Shown here: positions 17,324-32,443 of the stretch, piece after piece
How positions within the stretch are numbered: position 1 is the stretch's first letter
Layout of the letters: every line of letters begins with the position of its first letter
Origin: Bradyrhizobium manausense
Lineage (GTDB): Bacteria > Pseudomonadota > Alphaproteobacteria > Rhizobiales > Xanthobacteraceae
Direction of reading: 5' to 3'
Length of the DNA: 64,000 nt
Assembly (NCBI RefSeq): GCF_018129685.1
Contig: NZ_JAFCLG010000006.1
Location: 186,001-250,000, forward strand
The notes under the pieces: model-generated
Seen by the model: only the letters and a program-made list of their open reading frames with translations
What the model was told of the DNA's origin: nothing
Databases searched by the model: none
Position numbers and translations under genes: made by a program

Positions 17324-18151
17324 ATGAACCCCGTTGTAGTTGCCGTCGCCATCACCGGCTCCGTTCCGCGCAAGAAGGACAACCCGGCGGTGCCGATTCT
17401 GCCGTCCGAGCAGATCGAGTCGACGCACCAGGCCTTCGAGGCCGGTGCTACGCTTGCCCATATCCATGTCCGAAACGACGACGAGACGCCATCCTCCGAC
17501 CCCGAGCGTTTTGCTCTGGTGCAGCAGGGGATCAAGACGCATTGCCCCGGGATGATCGTCCAGTTCTCGACCGGCGGCCGCGGCCGCGACCCTTCCGCGC
17601 GCGGATCGTCGCTCTATCTGAAGCCCGACATGGCCTCGCTCTCGACGGGGTCGGTGAACTTTCCGACCATCGTCTACGAGAACAGCGCCGCGCTGGTCGA
17701 CATGCTCGCGACTGGCATGAAGACGAACGGCATCCGCCCGGAAATCGAGATCTTCGATCTGTCGCATCTGCACGGCGCCCGTCGCCTGATCGAGGCGGGC
17801 CTGATGGATGCGCGTCCGCATGTGCAATTCGTCATGGGCGTCAAGAACGCAATGCCCGCCGACGAGCATGTGCTCGACATCCTGCTGGCAGAACTCAAGC
17901 GGCTGATCCCCAAAGCCACATGGACCGCTGCCGGGATCGGACGCCATCAAGCCGAGGTCATGGGCTGGGCCCTGGCGCGCGGCGCCGATGCGGTTCGCAC
18001 CGGGCTCGAGGACAATATCAGGGTCGACAAGACCCGCCTCGCCGCCAGCAATGCGGAGCTCGTAAGCATCGCCTGTGAAGCCGTTACACGTCATGGCCGA
18101 CGCGTGGCAAACGCGGCCGAAGCGCGATCCCTGCTCGGGATCGCGGGATAG
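17324..18151 (+). CDS. BKACE-family beta-keto acid cleavage enzyme (DUF849)
   Basis: A 275-residue TIM-barrel enzyme of the 3-keto-5-aminohexanoate cleavage family. Members use acetyl-CoA and a zinc ion to split beta-keto acids into acetoacetate and a CoA ester. The visible signatures are ITGSVPRKKDNPAVPILPSE, the zinc-site strand AHIHVRNDDETP, QFSTGGRGRDPSARG and EIEIFDLSHL. The substrate cannot be read from sequence, and dehydrocarnitine and other beta-keto acids are known for the family. It follows the MHS transporter by 117 bp and may act on what that protein imports. Confidence 0.88.
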   Translation: MNPVVVAVAITGSVPRKKDNPAVPILPSEQIESTHQAFEAGATLAHIHVRNDDETPSSDPERFALVQQGIKTHCPGMIVQFSTGGRGRDPSARGSSLYLKPDMASLSTGSVNFPTIVYENSAALVDMLATGMKTNGIRPEIEIFDLSHLHGARRLIEAGLMDARPHVQFVMGVKNAMPADEHVLDILLAELKRLIPKATWTAAGIGRHQAEVMGWALARGADAVRTGLEDNIRVDKTRLAASNAELVSIACEAVTRHGRRVANAAEARSLLGIAG

Positions 18152-18270
18152 GGAGACGGTCCTGCGTCTGACATCCGCCCGACATGCTTCTGGCTGCCTT
18201 CTGCCATTCGGCAGTCGCCGTTCCCGCCTGCCGAGTCTGCGGGTAAACAGGGCTCACAGGCGTAATCGGC

Positions 18271-18285
18271 GCCTGCCGGGCAGGC
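18271..18285. promoter_or_regulatory. 15-bp palindrome just upstream of an MFS start
   Basis: GCCTGCC and GGCAGGC flank a single G, ending 10 bp before the MFS start codon. This is where a repressor or an mRNA hairpin could block translation. No regulator is known. Confidence 0.3.
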
Positions 18286-18295
18286 GACGACTGGA

Positions 18296-19504
18296 ATGCG
18301 GTTCTTGAAATCTGACAGCAGGCTCGTCGGAGTCCTGCTGGTGCTTGCGATCACCCAGCTCATTGGATGGGGCACGATCGGCCTTCCGGCCGTGGTCGGT
18401 CGCGACCTCGGGGCCGATCTCGGCATGAGCCTGCCGGCGGTGTTCGCGGGCAGCTCCGTTCTCTATGTCACCATGGGTCTGTGTGCGCCCTGGCTTGCCA
18501 AGGCCTTTGCGCGGCACGGCGCGCGCAAAGTCATGATGGTGGGCACCGTTGTCTCCGTGCCGGGCTACCTCGTCCTGTTTTTTGCGCGTGAGCCGGTGCT
18601 CTATTTCGTCGGCTGGGTCTTTCTCGGCATGGGCGGGAGCGCGACCTTGTCGACCGGCGCCTACATCATGCTGAACGAGGTGGCCGGGCGGGGCGCCAAG
18701 AATGCCATCGGTGGCCTGATGCTGGTGACAGGCCTCTCCAGCAGCATCTTCTGGCCGACCACGTCATGTCTCAGCGGCTGGCTAGGCTGGCGCGGGACCT
18801 GTCTCGTGTACGCGGCCATGCTGCTCGCCATCAACCTTCCGCTCTACGCATTCGTTGCGCCGCGCCGACAAGAAATTGCGGCTGACGATCGTGGCGAGGC
18901 GGTGAAGGCTGCGCCGTCCCCCGCAATTCCAAGAAGCACCTTCGGTCTCGTCGTCTGCGTCATCACGATGAATGCCTTCGTCAATTTCGGCATTGGCGCC
19001 ATCCTGATCGAATTGTTGCGGGCGGAGGGGTTGGCGCCGTCGCAGGCGCTCGCATTCGGATCGATGCTGGGCATCATCCAGGTCAGCGCGCGCGGCCTTG
19101 ACTTCCTCGGCGGCGGCCGATGGGACGGCATCACCACCGGGCTCGTGGCCGGCACGGCGCTTCCCATCGCCATGGTGCTGCTGATGCTGAGCGAAGGGGC
19201 GACCTGGGCGGTCGCGATCTTCATCCTGCTCTATGGTGCCGGCAGCGGCGCGATGGCGGTGGCGCGGGCGACGATCCCGCTGGTCTTCTACGACCAGGCC
19301 GAGTTCGCCAAGGCGATGTCGATGCTCGCACTGCCGCTCAACCTGGCGTCCGCGATCTCGCCGCCGCTGCTTGCCGGCCTGCTCACCCAGTTCGGCAGCC
19401 GCGGCGCGCTCGGGCTGACGCTGGTGTTTTCCTGCGCGACGGTGCTGATCCTGCTTCTGCTCGGCCGACGGCGTCCGGGCGCAGTGGCGGTTGGCGCGGC
19501 GTAA
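18296..19504 (+). CDS. MFS transporter
   Basis: A 402-residue 12-helix major facilitator protein. The start MRFLKSDSRLVGVLLVLAI leads into helix 1 (QLIGWGTIGLPAVV). The cytoplasmic loop between helices 2 and 3 contains APWLAKAFARHGARKVMM, a form of the MFS A-motif. The central loop is short and charged (APRRQEIAADDRGEAVKAAP). It belongs to the group of uncharacterised bacterial MFS proteins related to the oxalate/formate and monocarboxylate carriers. I cannot predict the solute. It could be the end of the BKACE transcript or an independent gene. Confidence 0.8.
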   Translation: MRFLKSDSRLVGVLLVLAITQLIGWGTIGLPAVVGRDLGADLGMSLPAVFAGSSVLYVTMGLCAPWLAKAFARHGARKVMMVGTVVSVPGYLVLFFAREPVLYFVGWVFLGMGGSATLSTGAYIMLNEVAGRGAKNAIGGLMLVTGLSSSIFWPTTSCLSGWLGWRGTCLVYAAMLLAINLPLYAFVAPRRQEIAADDRGEAVKAAPSPAIPRSTFGLVVCVITMNAFVNFGIGAILIELLRAEGLAPSQALAFGSMLGIIQVSARGLDFLGGGRWDGITTGLVAGTALPIAMVLLMLSEGATWAVAIFILLYGAGSGAMAVARATIPLVFYDQAEFAKAMSMLALPLNLASAISPPLLAGLLTQFGSRGALGLTLVFSCATVLILLLLGRRRPGAVAVGAA

Positions 19505-19673
19505 CGGGTTATTCGCGAGGCGGAAATAGACTTTGGCTGTCGATCCTGCGGCCGCCGCGATATGGCCGTATGCCGCCACTGCAGTGCTCGAGGAGCGAAA
19601 ATGGTGTATCCGCAGGGAGCGTGGTCCGCGATCTCGCAGCCCCGCCAAGATTCAGTTCCCGGAGGAAATCGAC

Positions 19674-20903
19674 ATGTCGGCCCTGCCGCTCTCAGGCATC
19701 AAGATCCTTGACCTCACGCGTGTGCTCGCAGGGCCATTGTCGGCCCAGATGCTGGGCGATCTCGGCGCGGAGGTGATCAAGATCGAGCGGCCAGGCACCG
19801 GCGACGACGCGCGCGCCTTCGGTCCACCTTACCTCACCGACCCCGAAGGCAAGGCGAACAACAACAATTCGTTCTATCTCTGCGCCAACCGCAACAAGAA
19901 GTCGGTCACCGTCAACATCGCAAAACCCGAGGGGCAGGGGATCATCCGCGAGCTTGCCAAGGACGCCGATGTCTTCATGGAGAACTACAAGGTCGGCGAT
20001 CTCAAGCGCTACGGCCTCGACTACGACACGATCAAGGCGATCAACCCTGGCATCATCTATTGCTCGGTAACCGGCTTCGGCCAGACCGGCCCCTATGCGC
20101 CGCGTGCCGGCTATGACGCCATCCTGCAGGCGATGGGCGGCCTGATGAGCGTTACCGGCCATATGGACGGCGAGCCGGGCGAGGGCCCGATGAAGGTCGG
20201 TCCGTCGATCGTCGACTACATGACCGGCATGAACACCTCGATCGGAATCCTCTCGGCGCTTTACCATCGCGACGCCAATGGCGGGCAGGGCCAGCACATC
20301 GACGTCTGCCTGTTCGACACCGTCATCGCATCGCTGTCGCACTGGCTGCAGATCTATCTCGTCAACGGCAAGATGCCGCCGCGCCGCGGCACCTGGGGCA
20401 ATGGCGGCATGCCGGCCGGCGTGTTCCGCTGCACCGACGGCGAGCTGATGCTGGTGGTCGGCAATGACGGCCAGTTCCGGAAGACCTGCGCGGTGCTCGG
20501 CGAGCCGGAGCTTGCAGCCGATCCGCGCTTCGTCAAGAACAATGACCGCGTGGTGCACGGCAAGGAGATCATGGCGATCTTCGCCGGCCTGTTCCTGAAG
20601 AAGCCGGTGGCCTATTGGCTGGAGAAGCTGGAGGAGGCCGGCGTGCCCTCGGGCCCGATCAACAATTTCGAGCAGGTGTTTGCCGATCCGCACGTGCAGT
20701 CGCGCGGCATGCGGGTGAAGGTCGACCATCCCTTCCAGCCTGATCTGTCGCTGATCCGCAATGCGCTCACCCTCTCGGAGACCCCGATCAAGGACTATCG
20801 TGCCCCGCCGCTGCTCGGCGAGCACACCCAGGAGATCCTCGGCGGCAAGCTTGGCTATGACGCCGACAAGATCGACGAGCTGAAGCAGCAGGGGATCATC
20901 TAG
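19674..20903 (+). CDS. CaiB/BaiF family (class III) CoA-transferase
   Basis: A 409-residue class III CoA-transferase, which moves CoA between carboxylic acids. The start ATG 19674 has GGAGG 8 nt upstream and gives the family N-terminus SGIKILDLTRVLAGPLSAQMLGDLGAEVIKIE. The CoA-binding stretch is NRNKKSVTVNI. The catalytic Asp is D181 in GPSIVDYMTG. HIDVCLFDTVIASL and PSGPINNFEQVFADPHVQSRGM are further family marks. The substrate is unknown. The gene is followed by a small conserved protein and RidA, and no operon link is certain. Confidence 0.9.
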   Translation: MSALPLSGIKILDLTRVLAGPLSAQMLGDLGAEVIKIERPGTGDDARAFGPPYLTDPEGKANNNNSFYLCANRNKKSVTVNIAKPEGQGIIRELAKDADVFMENYKVGDLKRYGLDYDTIKAINPGIIYCSVTGFGQTGPYAPRAGYDAILQAMGGLMSVTGHMDGEPGEGPMKVGPSIVDYMTGMNTSIGILSALYHRDANGGQGQHIDVCLFDTVIASLSHWLQIYLVNGKMPPRRGTWGNGGMPAGVFRCTDGELMLVVGNDGQFRKTCAVLGEPELAADPRFVKNNDRVVHGKEIMAIFAGLFLKKPVAYWLEKLEEAGVPSGPINNFEQVFADPHVQSRGMRVKVDHPFQPDLSLIRNALTLSETPIKDYRAPPLLGEHTQEILGGKLGYDADKIDELKQQGII

Positions 20904-21412: not shown

Positions 21413-21805
21413 ATGAAACGCGAAGCGCTCCGCGTCGAACCGATCTCGTCGTTTCTCGATCGCGTGAAGGCGCCGACCTCGCCCGTCACGCGCGCCGGCA
21501 ACATGATCTTCGTCGCAGGCCTGCCGCCATTCGACCCCGATACGGGCGCGATCGGCGGAATGGGAATCGAGCGGCAGAGCGAGATCATCATGGAGCAGAT
21601 GAAGCTGTGCCTGGAGACGTCGGGCGCGTCGCTCGACAACGTCATGAAGTGCAACGTCTACTGCACCTCGACGAAGCATTTCGCTGTCTTCAACGCGATC
21701 TATGCGCGCTACTTCCCGGTCGACCCGCCGGCGCGGATCTTCGTCGTGACGCCGGAATGGTTCGGCCCGTTCGACGTCGAGATCGACTGCATCGCGATGA
21801 TGTGA
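21413..21805 (+). CDS. RidA/YjgF family enamine/imine deaminase-like protein
   Basis: A 130-residue RidA-fold protein, normally a trimer. RidA enzymes hydrolyse reactive enamine and imine intermediates of PLP enzymes, while other subfamilies act in specific catabolic routes. It shows MIFVAGLPPFDPDTGAIGG, QMKLCLETSGASLDNVMKCNVY and a C-terminus FDVEIDCIAMM. The arginine expected in the RidA active site (P-A-R near the C-terminus) appears as DPPARIFVV. An upstream ATG is not available in better context, so ATG 21413 is used. It is tail-to-tail with the TetR gene, 4 bp apart. Confidence 0.85.
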   Translation: MKREALRVEPISSFLDRVKAPTSPVTRAGNMIFVAGLPPFDPDTGAIGGMGIERQSEIIMEQMKLCLETSGASLDNVMKCNVYCTSTKHFAVFNAIYARYFPVDPPARIFVVTPEWFGPFDVEIDCIAMM

Positions 21806-21809
21806 CGCG

Positions 21810-22472
21810 CTACCGCGCGGCGATGCGCGACGGTGCCTTCGCCTCCGTTCGCCCCGCCGTCAGCGCCATCGTCGCAACGCTGACGACGCGCTCGACGACG
21901 TCCTCGACGTCGTCGAGATCGCATTGGCCTTCCGACAGCTTTGTCAGGCGCTCGCTCTCGCGGATGGTGTGGTGCGCCATCGCAAGCGCGAAGTTGAGGC
22001 CCCAATAAATGTCGACGTCGTTGCGGTCGGGCAGGGACCTGCGCATCGCGCCTGCGAATTTCCGCAGATGGTCGATCTCGCGGTTCTTGATGCGGCGGAT
22101 CGGCGGCACTGATTCGATCGAGGCGCGGATCATGAAGCGCGCCGCGGTGGAGCGCTGGTTCTCTGGACCCAAGCAGCCGCGCAGCGTCGGGCCGACCAGC
22201 GCGCGCAAGATCACCTCGATCGGCGCGCGGCCGCCGCCCTCTTCCTCCGCCGCCTTCAGCTCGCGCAGGCGCTCGCGATTGGTCGCGATCGAGCGGGTGA
22301 CAAATAGTTCCGCGATCAGCTCGTCCTTCGAGCCGAAATGATAGTTCACCGCCGCGAGATTGACGTTTGCCTCCGCGACGATGTCGCGCAGCGTGACGTC
22401 GCCGAAGCCGCGATCGGCATAGAGCCGTTCGGCAGCGGCGAGAATGGCAGACCTCGTATGATCGCTGGGCAT
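21810..22472 (-). CDS. TetR-family transcriptional regulator
   Basis: A 220-residue repressor-type regulator. The N-terminal helix-turn-helix is clear: RSAILAAAERLYADRGFGDVTL followed by RDIVAEANVNLAAVNYHFGSKDEL. The C-terminal ligand domain is longer than minimal TetR and contains EVILRALVGPTLRGCLGPENQ. It resembles the CerR/YbiH-type subgroup in this region. It faces the acyl-CoA dehydrogenase gene across a 216-bp gap that holds a nested palindrome, so it probably controls that operon and itself. The ligand may be an acyl-CoA, which is inference. Confidence 0.88.
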   Translation of the reverse strand: MPSDHTRSAILAAAERLYADRGFGDVTLRDIVAEANVNLAAVNYHFGSKDELIAELFVTRSIATNRERLRELKAAEEEGGGRAPIEVILRALVGPTLRGCLGPENQRSTAARFMIRASIESVPPIRRIKNREIDHLRKFAGAMRRSLPDRNDVDIYWGLNFALAMAHHTIRESERLTKLSEGQCDLDDVEDVVERVVSVATMALTAGRTEAKAPSRIAAR

Positions 22473-22498: not shown

Positions 22499-22529
22499 TT
22501 CAAACAGTTGTATGAAACTATCGTTTGAA
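22499..22529. promoter_or_regulatory. Nested palindrome, probable TetR operator
   Basis: TTCAAAC (22499-22505) and GTTTGAA (22523-22529) form outer arms. AGTT/AACT arms lie inside at 22507-22520. The site begins 27 bp before the tetR start and lies upstream of the divergent dehydrogenase gene. Size and position fit a TetR dimer pair. Confidence 0.6.
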
Positions 22530-22688: not shown

Positions 22689-23924
22689 ATGGACTTCGAT
22701 ATGTCGCCCAAGCAGAAGGAATGGCTCGACCGCGTGCAGTCCTTCATGAACAAGCACGTGCGTCCGGCGGTGCCTGTTTATAACGAGCAGGACAAGAGCG
22801 GCGAACGCTGGAAGGTCATCCCGGTCCTGGAAGACCTCAAGAAGAAGGCGAAGGCCGAAGGCCTCTGGAACATGTTCATGCCGCCGAACGAGCATGAGGA
22901 CGATGAATTCCGCGGCGCGGGACTGACCAATCTCGAATATGCGCTGCTGTCGGAAGAGATGGGCCGCATCTCCTGGGCCTCGGAAGTGTTCAACTGCTCC
23001 GCACCCGACACCGGCAACATGGAAGTGTTCATGCGCTACGGCTCGAAGGAGCAGAAGCGCAAATGGCTGCGTCCGCTGATGGACGGCGAGATCCGCTCGG
23101 CCTTCCTGATGACGGAACCGGCCGTTGCCTCGTCCGACGCCACCAACATCGAGACCAGCATCAAGAAGGATGGCGATCACTACGTCATCAATGGCCGCAA
23201 ATGGTGGTCGTCCGGTGTCGGCGATCCCCGCTGCAAGATCGCGATCCTGATGGGCAAGACCGATTTCAACGCGGCCAAGCATCAGCAGCAATCGCAGATC
23301 CTGGTTCCGCTCGACACCCCAGGCATCAAGGTCGAGAAGATGCTGCCGGTGTTCGGCTTCGATGACGCGCCGCACGGCCACGCCCAGGTGCTGCTCGAGA
23401 ACGTGCGCGTGCCGAAGGAGAATATCCTGCTCGGCGAAGGTCGCGGCTTCGAGATCGCGCAGGGCCGTCTGGGACCGGGCCGTATTCACCACTGCATGCG
23501 CACCATCGGCAAAGCCGAGGAGGCGCTTGAGAAGATGGTGAAGCGGCTGATGTCGCGCACCGCCTTCGGCAAGAAGATCGTCGAACATTCGGTTTGGGAG
23601 CAGCGCATCGGCGAGGCCCGCACCAACATCGAGATGACGCGTCTTTTGTGCCTCAAGGCCGCCGACATGATGGACAAGGTCGGCAACAAGACCGCGCAGG
23701 CCGAGATCGCCATGATCAAGGTCGCGGCGCCCAACATGGCGCTGAAGATCATCGACGAGGCGATCCAGGCGTTCGGCGGCGCGGGCGTGTCCGACGAAGC
23801 GGGTCTTGCCAAGGACTACGCCGGCATCCGCACCCTGCGGCTCGCCGACGGTCCGGACGAGGTGCACAATCGCGCCATTGCCAGACTTGAAGTTCGGAAG
23901 TATGCCAACTCTCCCAAGCACTAA
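22689..23924 (+). CDS. Acyl-CoA dehydrogenase (ACAD10/ACAD11-like)
   Basis: A 411-residue flavoprotein of the acyl-CoA dehydrogenase family. It has the N-terminal helical domain, the middle beta domain with [19 protein letters not shown] and [24 protein letters not shown], and the C-terminal helical domain with [20 protein letters not shown] and [22 protein letters not shown] followed by [17 protein letters not shown]. The block RKWWSSG, its length and the adjacent APH-type kinase match the ACAD10/ACAD11 subgroup rather than classical beta-oxidation enzymes. That subgroup includes LvaC of levulinate catabolism, where the reaction includes phosphate loss from a 4-phosphoacyl-CoA. The substrate here is unproved. 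Confidence 0.9.
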
Positions 23925-23952
23925 GAGGGAGGGCTCGCGGGCGCTCCCTTCA

Positions 23953-24058
23953 CCGTCATTCCGGGGCGATGCGCAGCATCGAACCCGGAATATCGAGATT
24001 CCGGGTCTGGTCCTCCGGGCCGCGCTTCGCGGTCCCGCGGACCATCCCGGAATGACGG
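23953..24058. repeat. Intergenic palindromic repeat (Bradyrhizobium type)
   Basis: Outer arms CCGTCATTCCGGG (23953-23965) and CCCGGAATGACGG (24046-24058) match perfectly over 13 bp. An inner hairpin of CCCGGAAT/ATTCCGGG sits near 23994-24005. The 106-bp unit fills most of the gap between the dehydrogenase and kinase genes and would fold in their joint mRNA. Elements starting CGTCATTCCGGG are common between genes in Bradyrhizobium and related genomes. Confidence 0.8.
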
Positions 24059-24082
24059 ACAACAAAAAGAGGGAGCGTCATC

Positions 24083-25141
24083 GTGGCTGACGGCGTCAGG
24101 AAAGACGAAGAGTTCTCGGGCACCAAGCCGGTCGAGGAGCGTCATCGCTTCGACGAGCTCAGGCTCGAGGCCTGGATGCGCGAGCACGTCGAAGGCTTTG
24201 AAGGCCCGCTGGTCGTCCTGCAGTTCAAGGGCGGCCAGTCCAATCCGACCTACCGGCTCAACACGCCAAAGCGCTCTTACGTGATGCGCCGAAAGCCGTT
24301 CGGCAAACTGCTGCCGTCGGCGCATGCGGTCGATCGCGAATACCGCGTCATCGCAGCTCTTGGAAAGCAGGGCTTTCCGGTCGCGCACGCCTATGCACTG
24401 TGCCAGGACGACGGCGTCATCGGCGCTGCCTTCTACATCATGTCGATGGAAGAGGGCCGGGTGTTCTGGGATCCGACGCTGCCGAGCCAGGCGCCGGAGG
24501 ATCGCCGCAAGATCTTCACCAGCAAGATCGAGACGCTGGCCAAGCTCCACATGTACGATCCGGTTGCGATCGGGCTTGGCGATTTCGGCAAATCAGGCAA
24601 TTATTTCGCGCGCCAGATCGACCGCTGGACCAAGCAGTATCGCGCCTCCGAAACCCAGCACATTCCGGAGTTCGAGAAGGTCGCCGAATGGCTGCCGAAG
24701 ACCGTGCCCGAGCAGGCGCGCGTCTCGATCGTCCACGGCGACTATCGCCTCGACAACATGATTTTCCACCCGACGGAACCGCGCGTGCTGGCCGTGCTGG
24801 ACTGGGAGCTCTCCACGCTTGGCGATCCCATGGCCGACTTCACCTATCTGTTGATGCAGTGGGTCATGCCGGGCCTTGAAGGCGCCGACCTCAAGGCACT
24901 CAACATCCCGAGCGTGGAGGAAGCCGCGCAGATCTATTGCAACGTCACCAGGATGACGGTGCCTGATCTCAACTGGTACTTCGCCTACAATCTGTTCCGC
25001 CTCGCCGGCATCACGCAAGGCATCGCCGGCCGCGTCCGCGACGGCACCGCCGCCAACGCCAAGGCGCTGGAATCCGCCAAACGCACCGTGCCGCTGTCGA
25101 AGGCGTCGTGGGACTACGCGCAGAAGGCGGGCGCAGTGTGA
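24083..25141 (+). CDS. APH-fold phosphotransferase, ACAD10/11-type kinase
   Basis: A 352-residue aminoglycoside-phosphotransferase-fold kinase starting with GTG after GGGAG. The motifs include QFKGGQSNPTYRL (nucleotide loop), YVMRRKPFGKLLPSAHAVDREY (binding Lys/Arg and helix C), the catalytic loop VHGDYRLDNMIF and the metal motif VLDWELSTLGDPMADF. These match the kinase half of ACAD10/ACAD11 and LvaA, which phosphorylates 4-hydroxyacyl-CoA, better than antibiotic kinases. It is downstream of the dehydrogenase in the same orientation, which is the expected pair. Antibiotic resistance is unlikely. Confidence 0.88.
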   Translation: MADGVRKDEEFSGTKPVEERHRFDELRLEAWMREHVEGFEGPLVVLQFKGGQSNPTYRLNTPKRSYVMRRKPFGKLLPSAHAVDREYRVIAALGKQGFPVAHAYALCQDDGVIGAAFYIMSMEEGRVFWDPTLPSQAPEDRRKIFTSKIETLAKLHMYDPVAIGLGDFGKSGNYFARQIDRWTKQYRASETQHIPEFEKVAEWLPKTVPEQARVSIVHGDYRLDNMIFHPTEPRVLAVLDWELSTLGDPMADFTYLLMQWVMPGLEGADLKALNIPSVEEAAQIYCNVTRMTVPDLNWYFAYNLFRLAGITQGIAGRVRDGTAANAKALESAKRTVPLSKASWDYAQKAGAV

Positions 25142-25307: not shown

Positions 25308-26495
25308 TTAATCCTTCGCGCAATGCGCGATCAGCCTCTCCACAAACGCCGCGCACTTCTCCAGCTCGGCCATCTCCACGAACTCATCCGGCGTGTGCGC
25401 CTGCGCGATCGAGCCGGGGCCGATCACGACCGAGGGGATATCGGCAAGGCTGGTGAACAGGCTCGCCTCGGTGCCGAAAGCGACCTTGGCGTGGTCGTTG
25501 CGCCCCGCAAGGCTCTTGGCCAGCGTGACGATGGAGGCATCGGCCTTGGTGTCGAGGGCGGGGTAGTCGAGGATCTCCTCGAAGTCGATGCCGCATTCGG
25601 GTTGTCGCGCCTTCATCGCGGGCTCGAGCTCGGCCTTGGCCCAGGCGACGATCGCGTCCGTCACCTCGCGCGACTCGGTAATGCCGATGCCGCGGCATTC
25701 GAAATCCACCGTGCAGGTATCAGGCACGATGTTCAGCGCTGCGCCGCCATGCACGATGCTGGTCAGCAGCGTCGAGTGCGGAACGTCATAGAGACTGTTG
25801 CGCTCGGCCTCGGCCGCGAGCTTCACCGCGCGGCGGCGGATCTCGGTGATCATCTCGGCGGCATATTCGATGGCGTTGACGCCGTCAGGCGCGATCGAGG
25901 AGTGCCGTGCGAGCCCGTGGAAGGTTGCGCGCACGCCGTGCTTGCCCTTGTGGCCGATGATGACCTTCATCTCGGTCGGCTCGCCGATGAAGGCGCCGAG
26001 CGGCCGCATTTTCTTCTTCGCGATCTCGGCCAGCATCGGCCTCACGCCGATGCAGCCGATCTCCTCGTCATAGGAGATGGCGAGATGGATCGGCGTGTTG
26101 AGTTTTGCTTCCAGCATCTCCGGCACCATGGCGAGGCACACCGCGACAAATCCCTTCATGTCGGTGGTGCCGCGGCCGAACAGCTTGCCGTCGCGCTCGA
26201 CCAGCTTGAATGGATCGTGGCTCCAGTCCTGACCGACGACCGGCACGACGTCGGTATGGCCTGACAGCACGAGGCCGGGCTTGTCCTCAGGCCCGATCGT
26301 CACCCAAAGCGAAGCCTTCGTGCCGGTCTTGTCGGTGATGCGCTCGCCCTTGACGCCGAGGAAGGCGAGATAGCTCTCGATATGCGCGATCAGCGGCAAA
26401 TTGGTGCGGTCGCTGATCGTATCGAAGGCAACAAGCTCGGCGAGCATGTTGCGGATGCGATCGGGACGTGAGCTCGGGAAGATCGGATTGGGCAT
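25308..26495 (-). CDS. argE: Acetylornithine deacetylase / M20A peptidase
   Basis: A 395-residue zinc metallohydrolase of the M20 family. The metal-site motifs are LVLSGHTDVVP (His and Asp), LFGRGTTDMKGF, YDEEIGCIGV (the general-base Glu and a metal Glu), IGEPTEM and the C-terminal QAHTPDEFVEMAEL. These and the length fit ArgE of the alphaproteobacterial type, which releases acetate from N-acetylornithine. Other M20 amidohydrolases share the motifs, so the arginine role is likely but not certain. The dimerisation insert VIIGHKGKHGVRATFHGLARHSS is present. It has its own gap upstream with a 14-bp palindrome. Confidence 0.83.
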   Translation of the reverse strand: MPNPIFPSSRPDRIRNMLAELVAFDTISDRTNLPLIAHIESYLAFLGVKGERITDKTGTKASLWVTIGPEDKPGLVLSGHTDVVPVVGQDWSHDPFKLVERDGKLFGRGTTDMKGFVAVCLAMVPEMLEAKLNTPIHLAISYDEEIGCIGVRPMLAEIAKKKMRPLGAFIGEPTEMKVIIGHKGKHGVRATFHGLARHSSIAPDGVNAIEYAAEMITEIRRRAVKLAAEAERNSLYDVPHSTLLTSIVHGGAALNIVPDTCTVDFECRGIGITESREVTDAIVAWAKAELEPAMKARQPECGIDFEEILDYPALDTKADASIVTLAKSLAGRNDHAKVAFGTEASLFTSLADIPSVVIGPGSIAQAHTPDEFVEMAELEKCAAFVERLIAHCAKD

Positions 26496-26684: not shown

Positions 26685-27470
26685 CTAAACCGGCTTGCCC
26701 GTATACGGCATCGAGGCCGTGAGACCACCATCCACCGGGAACGCCTGGCCGTTCACATACGACGCCTCATCGCTGGCCAAAAAGAGTCCCATCGCCGCGA
26801 GTTCGTGCGGCTGGCCGGGGCGCTTGAGGGGATTGAGCTGGCCGATCTTGTCCTGGGTGCCGCGCTCCTTGGCGCGGTCGAAGATCGGCTTGGTCATGCC
26901 TGTTTCAATCAGGCCAGGGCAGACCGCATTGATGCGCACGCCGGTGCCGGTGAGCGAATAGGCCGTGGTTTGCACGAGGCTGATCACGCCGGCCTTGCTT
27001 GCCGCATAAGGATGCCCGCTCGCGCCGGCCTTGAGGCCAGCAACGGACGCGGTGAGCACGATCGCGCCCGATTGCTGCTTGACCATGTGCGGCATCGCGT
27101 GCTTGACCGCGAGGAACGGTCCGATCAGGTTGACGCGCAGCACTTCCTGCCAGTGCTCCACGGTCTGCTCGCCGAGCGGAACGAGCCCGCCGGAAACGCC
27201 GGCATTGGCCCAGATGACGTCGAGCCTGCCATGCGTCTTCACCGCCTTGTCGATCACGGCCATGACGTCCTTCTCGGAGCCGGCGTCAGCGAGCATTGCT
27301 TCGGCGACACCGCCCGCCTTCTTGATCTCCTCGACGGTTTCCTTCACCGCCTCGGTGCGATCGACCGCGATCAGCTTGGCGCCTTCCTTGGTGAAGAGGT
27401 GTGCGGCCGCGCGACCGATTCCGCTGCCGGCGCCGGTGATGATGACGGATTTGCCTTCGAGGCGGCCCAT
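26685..27470 (-). CDS. Short-chain dehydrogenase/reductase
   Basis: A 261-residue classical SDR. ATG 27470 has a GGGAG box and gives the usual N-terminus GRLEGKSVIITGAGSGIGRAAA. NAG is present in IWANAGVSGG, and the catalytic Ser-Tyr-Lys triad is in LTASVAGLKAGASGHPYAASKAGV. The C-terminal VNGQAFPVDGGLTAS is the family end motif. It should reduce or oxidise a hydroxy or keto group with NAD(P). Its neighbours suggest a role in hydroxyacyl metabolism. It diverges from the phosphatase gene. Confidence 0.88.
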   Translation of the reverse strand: MGRLEGKSVIITGAGSGIGRAAAHLFTKEGAKLIAVDRTEAVKETVEEIKKAGGVAEAMLADAGSEKDVMAVIDKAVKTHGRLDVIWANAGVSGGLVPLGEQTVEHWQEVLRVNLIGPFLAVKHAMPHMVKQQSGAIVLTASVAGLKAGASGHPYAASKAGVISLVQTTAYSLTGTGVRINAVCPGLIETGMTKPIFDRAKERGTQDKIGQLNPLKRPGQPHELAAMGLFLASDEASYVNGQAFPVDGGLTASMPYTGKPV

Positions 27471-27603: not shown

Positions 27604-28302
27604 ATGGCAGCCGCAGACAAGCCTGATGTGGTCACGACGCGGTGGTGGTGGGTTCGTCACGCGCCGGTGCGCAATGACGGCGGCAACATCTACGGACAGA
27701 GCGATCTTCCCTGCGACACCAGCGACACGTATGTGTTCAACGCCGTTGCCAAGGTGCTGCCGCGCAACGCGGTCTGGTATTCGAGCAATCTGATGCGCAC
27801 ACACCAGACGGCGGATGCGATCTGGGCGGCCGGCTACCCGAAGCCCGCGTCGATGAAGTGGGAGGCCGATCTTGCCGAACAGAATCTCGGACAATGGCAA
27901 GGCATGAACCGCGCCCGGTTCATCGCGAGCCGCCCGGTGGGATCGAACTGGTTCGCTGATATCAACGAGCCCGCGCCCGGCGGCGAAAGCTTCATGGATC
28001 TCTATAACCGCGCGCGCCGCACCATCGAGCGGATCAATGCCGAGGCCGCCGGCCGGGACGTGATCGCGGTCGCGCATGGCGGCACCATCAAGGCGGCGAT
28101 CGGTCTCGCGCTCGACGGCCAGGTGGAGCGGGCGCTGTCGTTCGACATCGACAACGTCTCGATCACGCGGCTCGATCATTTCGCCAGCCCCGAGCGCTCG
28201 GTCTGGCGGGTGCCGATGGTGAACCAGCAGCCGTGGATTGCCGATGCTGCGCATGCAGAGCTGCATCAGTTGGCGGGACCGGAAGTCAAGAAGCTCGCCT
28301 GA
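27604..28302 (+). CDS. Histidine phosphatase family protein
   Basis: A 232-residue phosphoglycerate-mutase-like phosphatase. The catalytic motif reads WVRHAPV (RHG form is RHA here), followed by YSSNLMRTHQTAD, the conserved Glu in AEQNLGQWQGM, and the second catalytic His in VIAVAHGGTIKAAIG. Substrate is not evident; relatives act on sugar phosphates or phospho-metabolites. The start is ATG 27604 behind GGAAGGG. It forms a likely operon with the downstream SDR (68-bp gap). Its presence near an APH-type kinase is notable. Confidence 0.85.
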   Translation: MAAADKPDVVTTRWWWVRHAPVRNDGGNIYGQSDLPCDTSDTYVFNAVAKVLPRNAVWYSSNLMRTHQTADAIWAAGYPKPASMKWEADLAEQNLGQWQGMNRARFIASRPVGSNWFADINEPAPGGESFMDLYNRARRTIERINAEAAGRDVIAVAHGGTIKAAIGLALDGQVERALSFDIDNVSITRLDHFASPERSVWRVPMVNQQPWIADAAHAELHQLAGPEVKKLA

Positions 28303-28370: not shown

Positions 28371-29138
28371 ATGACCTTGTTCGACATGAAGGGGAAAGTC
28401 GCCGTCATCACCGGCTCGACGCGCGGCATCGGGCTTGCGATCGCCGAGCGCATGGCGGAGCACGGCGCCAAGGTCGTGATCTCCTCGCGCAAGGCCGATG
28501 TCTGCGATCAGGTCGCGACTAGCATCAACGACAAGTTCGGCAAGGGCACCGCGGTCGCGATCGCCGCCAACATCTCGTCGAAGGAAAATCTGCAGAACCT
28601 CGTCGACGAGAGCAATCGGGCCTTCGGCAAGATCGACGTGCTGGTCTGCAACGCGGCGTCGAACCCGTATTACGGTCCGCTCGCCGGCATCTCCGACGAT
28701 CAGTTCCGAAAAATTCTCGACAACAACATCGTCGCCAACAACTGGCTGATCTCGATGGTGGTGCCGCAGATGATCGAGCGCAAGGACGGCTCGGTGATCA
28801 TCGTCTCCTCGATCGGCGGCCTGAAGGGCTCGACCATTCTCGGCGCCTACGCGATCTCGAAGGCCGCCGACATGCAGCTCGCGCGCAACCTCGCCTGCGA
28901 ATACGGCAAGCACAACATCCGCGTGAACTGCATCGCGCCCGGCCTGATCAAGACCGACTTCGCGAAGGCGCTGTGGGACAATCCGGAGAACCTGAAGGCT
29001 TCGACCGCGCGCTCGCCGCTGCTGCGCATCGGCATCCCCGACGAGATCGCGGGCGCGGCGGTGTTTCTGGGCTCTGCGGCCGGCGACTTCATGACCGGCC
29101 AGACCATGGTGATCGACGGCGGCGCGACGATCAGCTGA
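28371..29138 (+). CDS. Short-chain dehydrogenase/reductase (second copy)
   Basis: A 255-residue classical SDR. TGxxxGIG appears as ITGSTRGIGLAIAE, NA(A)S as VCNAASNPYYGP, and the active-site Ser/Tyr/Lys as IVSSIGGLKGSTILGAYAISKAAD. The C-terminus is FMTGQTMVIDGGATIS. The N-terminus and motif spacing resemble the DHRS4/peroxisomal-type SDRs of fatty-acid metabolism. GGGAGAG lies 5 nt upstream of ATG 28371. It follows the histidine phosphatase and precedes the AI-2E permease. Confidence 0.88.
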   Translation: MTLFDMKGKVAVITGSTRGIGLAIAERMAEHGAKVVISSRKADVCDQVATSINDKFGKGTAVAIAANISSKENLQNLVDESNRAFGKIDVLVCNAASNPYYGPLAGISDDQFRKILDNNIVANNWLISMVVPQMIERKDGSVIIVSSIGGLKGSTILGAYAISKAADMQLARNLACEYGKHNIRVNCIAPGLIKTDFAKALWDNPENLKASTARSPLLRIGIPDEIAGAAVFLGSAAGDFMTGQTMVIDGGATIS

Positions 29139-31210: not shown

Positions 31211-32443
31211 CTAGTCCACCGCCGCATAAACCAGATTCCGCACCAGTGTCCGCGTAAAATCGCGCTGGCCCGGGCCCTGGGTCATGAACACCGTGAACAG
31301 ATCCTCCTTCGGATCAACCCAGAAGAACGTGCCGGCAATGCCGCTCCAGAAATACTGGCCGACGCTGCCGGGGAAGGGCGCGATGCCGGCCTCGCGACGG
31401 ACGGCGAAGCCGAGACCAAAGCCGTGGCCGGGCGACAGCAGGGTGCCGTTGGTCACGACATCAGGGCCGAGGTGATCGGACGCCATCAGCTCCAGCGTCT
31501 TGCGGCCGATGATCCTGGCACCTTCCAGCGTGCCGCCATTGCGCAGCATCAGCGCGAAGCGGGCGTAGTCCATCGTGGTCGAGACCAGGCCGCCGCCGCC
31601 TGACTCCATCACCGGCTGCTCGAGCATGTTGAACAGTGCGACCTTGTCGCCGGTCCAGGGATCGGCTTCGAACGGCTGGGCGAGCCTGCCGGCATTGGCC
31701 TCGGAGGTCGAGAAGCCGGTCTCGCCCATCTGCAAGGGTGCGAGGATACGTTCGGCGAGGAACGTGCCGAGCGACTTGCCGCTGACGACTTCGATGATGC
31801 GGCCGAGGATGTCGGTGGAGCGGCTGTAGTTGAACTCGTCGCCCGGGTGGCAGACCAGCGGGAAGCTCGCGACCAGTGCCGCATGTTCGGCATTGGTGAT
31901 CTTGCGGCTGCGGACGCGGGACTCCTGGTAGATCTTGTGCACGGGGCCGTCGCCCTGGTGCTCATAGGTGAGACCCGAGGTGTGGCGGAGCAGGTCCTGC
32001 ACCGTCATCGGCCGCTTCGGCGAAACCAGTTCAAGCTTGCCGCCGCTGACGACACCGACCTTCTGGTCGGCAAATTCCGGAATGAACTTGGCCACGGGAT
32101 CGCCGAGGAGGAGATGGCCGTCCTCGACCAGCGCCATGATGCCGACGGAGACGATCGGCTTGGTCATCGAGAAGATCCGGAAGATCGAGTCAAGCGCCAT
32201 CGCCGGGCCTGCCGGACCCTGCTTGCCGAGGGCCTCGAACCAGCCGACCTGGCCGCCCCGAGCCACCAGCACGGTCACCCCGGGAACGGTTCCCTTGTCG
32301 ATCTCGCGCTTGAACGCATCCGACATCGCCTGGAGGCGGCGGCGCGACAGGCCCAGCGTTTCGGGCCTGGCCTCGGGCAAAGGCGGGGTTTTCGGCGCGG
32401 TCGAGGGGCGGGTGGCGGCTGCGGTCGACGCTAGGGTCGTCAT
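31211..32443 (-). CDS. Serine hydrolase of the beta-lactamase (class C/EstB) family
   Basis: A 410-residue serine hydrolase. The nucleophile motif is S92-M-T-K95 (FSMTKP). The second motif is Y206-S-R (NYSRSTDILG) rather than the YAN of true class C enzymes. A third motif near GIAGTFFWVDPKEDL lacks a clear KTG. No signal peptide is obvious, so it may be cytoplasmic. This pattern suits an esterase or a transacylase such as EstB/LovD more than a beta-lactamase. It ends 6 bp from the AI-2E stop (convergent). Confidence 0.82.
   Translation of the reverse strand: MTTLASTAAATRPSTAPKTPPLPEARPETLGLSRRRLQAMSDAFKREIDKGTVPGVTVLVARGGQVGWFEALGKQGPAGPAMALDSIFRIFSMTKPIVSVGIMALVEDGHLLLGDPVAKFIPEFADQKVGVVSGGKLELVSPKRPMTVQDLLRHTSGLTYEHQGDGPVHKIYQESRVRSRKITNAEHAALVASFPLVCHPGDEFNYSRSTDILGRIIEVVSGKSLGTFLAERILAPLQMGETGFSTSEANAGRLAQPFEADPWTGDKVALFNMLEQPVMESGGGGLVSTTMDYARFALMLRNGGTLEGARIIGRKTLELMASDHLGPDVVTNGTLLSPGHGFGLGFAVRREAGIAPFPGSVGQYFWSGIAGTFFWVDPKEDLFTVFMTQGPGQRDFTRTLVRNLVYAAVD

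Follow-up and report, generated by a model that had tools for sequence, protein, structure and literature searches.

Mammalian ACAD10 and ACAD11 were assigned in 2024-2025 as fused kinase-eliminases for 4-hydroxy fatty acids (PMC12440821, PMC11342911). A 64,000-nucleotide stretch of the Bradyrhizobium manausense genome (contig NZ_JAFCLG010000006.1, positions 186,001 to 250,000; hereafter, the entire stretch is termed “the window”) raises the question of whether a bacterium may hold the same machinery in two pieces. The window harbours a gene for an acyl-CoA dehydrogenase (ACAD), followed by a gene for an APH-fold kinase:

22689..23924, + strand: ACAD10/11-type acyl-CoA dehydrogenase, predicted 4-phosphoacyl-CoA eliminase (411 aa, ATG start)
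24083..25141, + strand: APH-fold kinase of the ACAD10/11 type, predicted 4-hydroxyacyl-CoA kinase (352 aa, GTG start; PF01636)

As judged from conserved residues and gene neighbourhoods, this pair very probably constitutes a split ACAD10/11-type kinase-eliminase for 4-hydroxyacyl-CoA. The kinase would phosphorylate the 4-hydroxyl group of a 4-hydroxyacyl-CoA with ATP, and the flavoprotein would then eliminate the phosphate, employing FAD, residue D387 as the base and R260, H268 and R271 to hold the phosphate group. The product, a 2-enoyl-CoA, would enter beta-oxidation. A divergently transcribed, PsrA-like TetR protein is predicted to repress the pair via one dedicated operator and to be released, probably, by an acyl-CoA or a fatty acid. 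Two oxidoreductases of the short-chain dehydrogenase/reductase (SDR) family probably interconvert 4-oxo/4-hydroxy or 3-hydroxy/3-oxo acyl-CoAs, and a histidine phosphatase might remove or control stalled 4-phospho intermediates. The genes themselves, their key residues, their co-occurrence and synteny and a conserved operator-like site are read from the data, whereas the chemistry of this scheme is inferred by analogy with characterised relatives; the chain length, the SDR steps, the effector and the role of the phosphatase are guesses.

Both open reading frames (ORFs) are read directly from the DNA, intact and with no internal stop, and their third-position GC contents are 0.85 (ACAD) and 0.84 (kinase). 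The sequence-only reading of the locus, an acyl-CoA dehydrogenase followed by an APH-fold kinase, was confirmed at the level of the ORFs and of Pfam, which returned the N, M and C domains of Acyl-CoA_dh for the former and APH (PF01636, E 2.2e-54) for the latter. Since the two ORFs lie 158 nt apart and do not code for one polypeptide, we use the term “split ACAD10/11-type” rather than ACAD11.

The ACAD is 54% identical to mouse ACAD11, and its closest solved structure is mouse ACAD11 itself (8v3u, E 5.5e-135), followed by 8v3v, 2wbi and 4hr3 of the same type and then, after a large drop to 1.5e-41, by MCAD. A scan of named genomes with the ACAD as query yielded 591 relatives, the best 80 of which form the named loci L261-L340 (overlap with the sampled genomes described below is possible); among these 80, the nearest relative stems from Bradyrhizobium sp. 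LTSP849 (97%). In an alignment that allows for a one-residue offset of the PDB chain, R260, R265, H268, R271 and D387 of the window ACAD correspond to R626, R631, H634, R637 and D753 of mouse ACAD11. In the mouse enzyme, R626, H634 and R637 are modelled as holding the 4-phosphate, D753 acts as the base and R631 orients the substrate; the phospho intermediate accumulates in R626, H634 and R637 mutants (PMC12440821). The HCMR motif region and the segment LADGPDEVH, where D387 provides the catalytic Asp at a site usually occupied by Glu in ACADs, are identical to ACAD11. All five residues are invariant among 10 aligned ACADs, comprising the window protein, three paralogues from the same genome and six proteins from other genomes.

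The phylogeny of the ACADs (52 rows; a quick method with no bootstrap) places the window protein in a 37-row clade (SH-aLRT 99) together with mouse ACAD11, 4hr3 and the three own-genome paralogues. A second type of HCMR-bearing ACADs, described below, adjoins this clade, and eight conventional ACADs of the same genome stand apart. Overall, the host genome (7.48 Mb, 58 contigs) yields 31 ACAD matches, including three further ACADs with HCMR besides the window protein. One of these paralogues (64% identity; L025 4656-9590 on contig C1 of the same genome) follows a gene that reads as an acyl-CoA ligase and lies near a gene for a flavin-dependent monooxygenase (Pfam FMO-like); a route from ketone via lactone to hydroxy acid is conceivable there.

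The kinase is 39% identical to the kinase half of mouse ACAD11 and 55% identical to 3dxp; searches of solved structures returned 3dxp with E 9.6e-125 and the ACAD11 kinase half (8v3v) with E 2e-76. The HGD, N and DWE motifs are present, and D220, N225 and R177 match D220, N225 and R176 of ACAD11, i.e., the catalytic Asp and Asn and the CoA-side Arg. In a kinase tree of 71 rows, the window protein and the ACAD11 kinase share one 54-row branch (support 93/99), within which the exact place of the ACAD11 kinase is unsure, because its row is long. A second branch of 14 rows (100/99) unites 9o56, Bacillaceae, an acidobacterium, a planctomycete and nine rows of the families f23, f26, f30, f41, f57 and f62 (family codes are labels of the genome search tool). 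The clustering with other ACAD groups that would have refuted the ACAD11-type assignment did not appear, and the kinase falls in the branch that contains the ACAD11 kinase domain.

Ten APH matches are found in the host genome, only one of which is a kinase of the ACAD11-containing branch. L023 13533-14900 (contig C10 of the same genome) encodes another APH kinase and, after it, a DUF6285 protein, 2.4 kb from another HCMR ACAD. In the phylum sample introduced below, every one of the 19 genomes with DUF6285 carries it beside an APH (21 loci; two pairs are halves of one gene), and the L023 genes possibly form an LvaAB-like pair. DUF6285 is not equated with LvaB of Pseudomonas, as no f30 (Pseudomonas-like) genome in the sample has DUF6285.

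Do the two genes travel together? A sample of 249 genomes of the phylum was searched with thresholds of 1e-30 for the kinase and 1e-80 for the ACAD, scoring the 7 best ACAD candidates per genome, such that “no ACAD” means none among those. By direct count, the kinase is present in 69/249 and the ACAD in 67/249 genomes, and all 67 are within the 69. In a sample of 61 genomes of the family (kinase at 1e-60, ACAD at 1e-80), 45 genomes have the kinase and 30 the ACAD; 29 have both, 16 the kinase only and one the ACAD only. The 16 kinase-only genomes of the family sample, plus G072 and G284 of the phylum sample, were searched with the divergent ACAD of locus L075, and 17 of the 18 hold such a second-type ACAD. 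The proteins at all 19 second-type loci (L221-L239) carry RL(G/A)PARLTHCMRW (signature RLGPARLTHCMRW), and the Asp motif is found in 18/19 by the pattern used; they are 37-44% identical to the L075 member, except for L221, which is the L075 member itself, and its near copy L222. Given the 17 of 18 genomes, the second-type HCMR ACAD apparently serves as partner of the kinase in genomes that lack the first type; at L075 the kinase follows a second-type ACAD.

Gene order is likewise conserved. In all of the 13 family pair loci (the window plus L056-L067, which were fetched at length and have kinases of at least 67% identity), the ACAD gene lies directly upstream of the kinase gene on the same strand. 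The reverse order, kinase then ACAD, occurs in six of seven kinase loci of family f29, as well as in named loci of Burkholderia, Paraburkholderia, Polaromonas and Hydrogenophaga, and corresponds to the domain order of the fused animal protein.

The genes around the pair and the elements between them comprise the following:

21810..22472, - strand: TetR-family repressor, PsrA-like (TetR_C_30; PF17939 and PF00440), divergent from the ACAD gene
22499..22529, + strand: predicted operator TTCAAACAGTTGTATGAAACTATCGTTTGAA, two overlapping PsrA-type palindromes
23950..24065, no strand: repeated palindromic element between the ACAD and kinase genes, a genome repeat with a strong fold
25308..26495, - strand: ArgE-like M20 amidohydrolase (NF005710, 520 bits versus a cut-off of 412)
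26685..27470, - strand: SDR3, SDR-family oxidoreductase (PF13561)
27604..28302, + strand: histidine phosphatase, branch 1 (PF00300, E 3.5e-31)
28371..29138, + strand: SDR2, SDR-family oxidoreductase of 255 aa (PF13561)
31211..32443, - strand: beta-lactamase-fold hydrolase (PF00144, E 1.6e-59)

Pfam corroborated the TetR, the two SDRs and the histidine phosphatase as real genes, and their earlier casting as pathway partners gains backing from conserved synteny in the family loci.

The histidine phosphatase of the window scores 108.8 bits against 21.7 with PF00300, and R18, H19, R65, E92 and the HGG motif are intact; RH, R, E and HGG are, we assume, the catalytic residues of branch 1. A histidine phosphatase gene is found in 11/13 family pair loci (it is lacking in L059 and L067), in 16/59 fetched kinase loci of the phylum (17/60 including the window) and in 9/50 named kinase loci, among them L306, where it is located roughly 5 kb away on the opposite strand. 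Across kinase-bearing families, the first listed genome of each was searched with PF00300, a selection rule fixed beforehand in a test that was designed after the pattern had been seen and that includes several genomes already seen by then. In 11 of 19 families a histidine phosphatase gene lies within 5 kb of the kinase gene, in all 11 on the same strand, as compared to 0.34 expected from gene counts and genome sizes (P ~1e-15 under random placement). The corresponding Fisher value ignores shared ancestry and is not relied on. The kinase and phosphatase ORFs even overlap by 1 to 4 nt in L208, L214 and L218, and all ten candidates checked in Pfam are PF00300 proteins, nine located near a kinase gene and one (L325) near an ACAD gene in a locus where no kinase was recognised.

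The 35 phosphatase sequences fall into three kinds: 11 of the window kind (RHA...HGG), five of a Burkholderiales kind (MRHG(D/S)VTYF...LHGG) and 19 of an RHGQASF-like kind. In the latter, the His of HGG, presumably an active-site residue in this superfamily, is replaced by Ser in 19/19 sequences (TSGG, SSGG or SSVG). Eight of the nine kinases of families f23, f26, f30, f41, f57 and f62 in the second tree branch have this Ser kind alongside; L203 is without it.

A histidine phosphatase gene next to such a pair has a precedent. Habe et al. (2019) described one, with no lvaB, in an lva-like cluster of Pseudomonas citronellolis, suggested that phosphate might be removed from 4-phosphovaleryl-CoA and called for a functional test (PMC6692424). 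The term “histidine phosphatase” is absent from the main text of the ACAD10/11 papers (PMC12440821, PMC11342911), and beyond Habe et al. no other paper on this neighbour was recognised among the matches listed by full-text searches of a collection lacking most subscription papers. In ACAD10, the DxD motif of the N-terminal HAD domain is incomplete; the phosphatase activity of this domain is negligible, and it restrains the kinase (PMC11342911). By analogy, the Ser kind hints at a regulatory partner of, or a brake on, the kinase.

We tentatively propose, at somewhat less than even confidence, a three-part system consisting of a kinase, an eliminase and a phosphatase-fold partner of the kinase, which was recruited repeatedly from different subfamilies, as represented by the three kinds. 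Because its second active-site His is Ser throughout, the Ser kind would restrain the kinase without any catalysis of its own; such a restraint would parallel, by convergence, the degenerate HAD domain found in ACAD10, and the Ser-kind partner perhaps stands where LvaB stands in P. putida. For the window kind, whose active site is whole, we propose a genuine 4-phosphoacyl(-CoA) phosphatase, which would release CoA and dispose of intermediates that have stalled or are the wrong isomer. Two points are new, namely how widely the phosphatase association extends and that, in the commonest kind, one residue presumed to lie in the active site is changed. The latter change points to a brake or partner, a reading that is unproven.

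The SDR genes are similarly persistent. SDR2 is present in 13/13 and SDR3 in 11/13 family pair loci (the window included), and SDR2 copies of 68-75% identity directly follow the kinase gene in one f2 and three f11 loci. At L063 and L064 the genes for ACAD, kinase, SDR3, histidine phosphatase and SDR2 are arranged on one strand, nearly gapless. The f11 loci L162 and L163 comprise ACAD, an alcohol-dehydrogenase-type gene (PF08240/PF00107 in L162), kinase, SDR2 and SDR3, and in nine named Sphingomonad loci an interval of roughly one gene separates the ACAD from kinase, SDR2 and SDR3, which follow in this order on one strand. An AMP-binding enzyme is encoded downstream of kinase and SDR2 in L067 and L161 (directly in L161). 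The ArgE-like gene, which splits the window cluster between the kinase and the SDR/phosphatase genes, recurs among the 13 pair loci only in L056 of the same genus and is not taken as a pathway member. The beta-lactamase-fold hydrolase, which lies near the cluster in the window, in eight family loci and in one f11 locus (L162), is a weak candidate for a pathway-feeding esterase or lactonase, the opening of lactones being a guess.

The TetR gene is divergent from the ACAD gene in 10/13 family pair loci. Its product scores 89.6 bits with the NCBIfam PsrA (Vibrio) equivalog NF053516, below the cut-off of 300. The intergenic site TTCAAACAGTTGTATGAAACTATCGTTTGAA holds GAAAC-N4-GTTTG, and the palindrome GAAACTATCGTTTG is located at 22514-22527; GAAAC-N4-GTTTG is the PsrA consensus, with C/GAAAC-N2-4-GTTTG/C as the operator form (PMC13104628). 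For a footprint 23 loci were tried, in four of which no TetR was recognised, and in the 19 TetR/ACAD intergenic regions obtained (which may include duplicates) TTCAAACAGTTGTATGAAACTATCGTTTGAA appears as a conserved island between diverging flanks. The stretch TGTATGAAAC(T/C)ATCGTTT is kept in 18/19 regions, L064 being the exception. When up to 2 mismatches are allowed, the 7.48 Mb genome contains a single copy of the operator core, and therefore, the TetR is apparently a local regulator; a wider regulon was considered and dropped, as no second core was found at 2 mismatches. For the same reason, this full operator does not extend its control to the SDR and phosphatase genes. We infer a local repressor answering to an acyl ligand, acting at a predicted operator. 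Elsewhere in the window, a PsrA-like palindrome (TTCAAACAGCTCTTTGAAT) is located at 2082-2100, near the start of a minus-strand ORF beginning at 2117. The region upstream of the TetR gene (17324-20903 and 21413-21805) encodes a beta-keto acid cleavage (BKACE) protein, a major facilitator superfamily transporter, a class III CoA-transferase and a RidA-like protein; transporter, CoA-transferase and RidA-like genes recur only in L056 among the 13 pair loci.

The element between the ACAD and kinase genes (23950-24065) has at least 68 matches in its own genome, itself included (40 of 136 candidates were scored), many of which represent both strands of one place. The element folds at -74.1 kcal/mol (z -8.3) and could attenuate read-through to the kinase gene, thereby uncoupling the expression of the pair. 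Among 12 relatives, the ACAD-kinase gap is at most 48 nt in six, and the ORFs chosen for L063 overlap.

A number of observations weigh against a split kinase-eliminase and against the partners assigned to it. G036 of the family sample has the ACAD without a kinase at 1e-60, and in G011, which has a kinase, the threshold used returned no HCMR ACAD. In eight f1 loci (L068-L075; kinases of 54-57% identity) no first-type ACAD occurs within the fetched stretch, and five of these have housekeeping neighbours in common, which read as purD and mutL (names given by reading the sequences), and hence, additional roles may exist for the kinase family; a first-type ACAD is found elsewhere in six of the eight genomes. 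The host genome holds three extra HCMR ACADs and a single kinase of the ACAD11-containing branch, which may thus serve several eliminases, or else the paralogues do something different. One kinase residue is matched with uncertainty: R85 precedes the alpha-C residue E86, and the R86 printed for ACAD11 does not fit the chain offset that suits the other residues and would be 84. Tight coupling of the two genes is only assumed, since they are separate and have a repeat between them. Finally, a histidine phosphatase gene is lacking within 5 kb of the kinase gene in 8/19 families and is likewise lacking in 43/59 fetched phylum loci, in 41/50 named loci and in all of the eight f1 loci.

Three other explanations compete with the split kinase-eliminase. 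An ordinary acyl-CoA dehydrogenase might have come to lie beside an unrelated aminoglycoside-type kinase by chance, and given 10 APH-fold kinase and 31 ACAD matches in this genome the ingredients are common; yet the adjacency in 13/13 loci, the reverse order in f29, the 67/67 co-occurrence over 249 genomes and the HCMR/Asp signature leave this with a negligible probability, and chance adjacency was rejected on the synteny and co-occurrence counts. An improbable alternative keeps the phosphorylation-elimination chemistry and moves the hydroxyl group, to position 3 or 5, to a branched chain or to a sterol- or jasmonate-like side chain. The paralogues and the two ACAD subtypes suggest several substrates, as does the paralogue that follows an acyl-CoA ligase-like gene near the monooxygenase gene, but the residues that the ACAD11 mutants tie to the 4-phospho substrate are kept in the window ACAD.

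Hardly more probable than a shifted hydroxyl group is a levulinate (lva-type) operon, in which LvaA/LvaC counterparts would act on 4-hydroxyvaleryl-CoA only and be fed by an LvaD-like SDR. The two-step chemistry is the same, the 255 aa of SDR2 equal the size listed for the LvaD homologue of P. citronellolis, and the cluster of that organism also holds a histidine phosphatase (PMC6692424). However, the window regulator is TetR/PsrA-like, while LvaR of strain KT2440 is a sigma-54-dependent sensory box protein (PMC6692424), and neither an acyl-CoA ligase (AMP-binding) nor a sigma-54 regulator or a partner of LvaB size was found among the neighbours scanned, which in Pfam were a subset of the window ORFs. 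Moreover, the kinase is 39% identical to the ACAD11 kinase, as compared to the 29% reported for LvaA and the ACAD10/11 kinase domains (PMC11342911), and the other own-genome APH with its DUF6285 partner could fill an LvaAB-like role. No lva operon was recognised among the best 80 of the 591 named ACAD relatives. Levulinate is thus not specifically supported, and on present evidence the locus is not an lva operon.

The locus suggests that Bradyrhizobium and its relatives use 4-hydroxy acids or gamma-lactones. The role of the HAD domain of ACAD10 is only partly understood, and because bacteria hold the parts as separate genes, each of them can be tested alone. Should a phosphatase-fold protein indeed control or clear the phospho intermediate, control of the kinase would be a recurring theme, and the bacterial genes would offer a simple model for ACAD10.

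How does the locus compare with known systems? With mammalian ACAD11 both domains are homologous over nearly their full length, and the phosphate-binding R/H/R, the catalytic Asp and the Asp/Asn of the kinase are kept in the window pair. In contrast to ACAD10 and ACAD11, the window has two separate genes with the ACAD first, and the HAD domain of ACAD10 is missing; the linked genes are instead those for a histidine phosphatase and two SDRs. The regulator shares with PsrA the TetR_C_30 domain and the GAAAC-N4-GTTTG operator (PMC13104628), but falls below the NCBIfam cut-off for PsrA and has a single operator in the genome.

The split kinase and ACAD of Burkholderia (B. pseudomallei Q63VL0 and its partner), each of which can substitute in vitro for its ACAD10 counterpart domain (PMC11342911), are separate proteins, as in the window. 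The pair of Burkholderia guangdongensis (L327), likely orthologous to the tested one, shares 57% (kinase) and 62% (ACAD) identity with the window proteins; it differs in that the kinase precedes the ACAD and a histidine phosphatase gene, from a different subfamily, sits immediately upstream. LvaA/LvaC of P. putida convert 4-hydroxyacyl-CoA via 4-phosphoacyl-CoA to enoyl-CoA (PMC6692424, PMC12440821) and, compared by description only, resemble the window in the two-step chemistry and in an SDR within the cluster, whereas no counterpart of lvaR, lvaB or lvaE is present among the scanned window neighbours. The lva-like cluster of P. citronellolis unites kinase, histidine phosphatase, ACAD and SDR, as does the window (PMC6692424); it is the cluster of one strain, found via levulinate-induced genes, while the association described here extends over many families and three phosphatase subfamilies.

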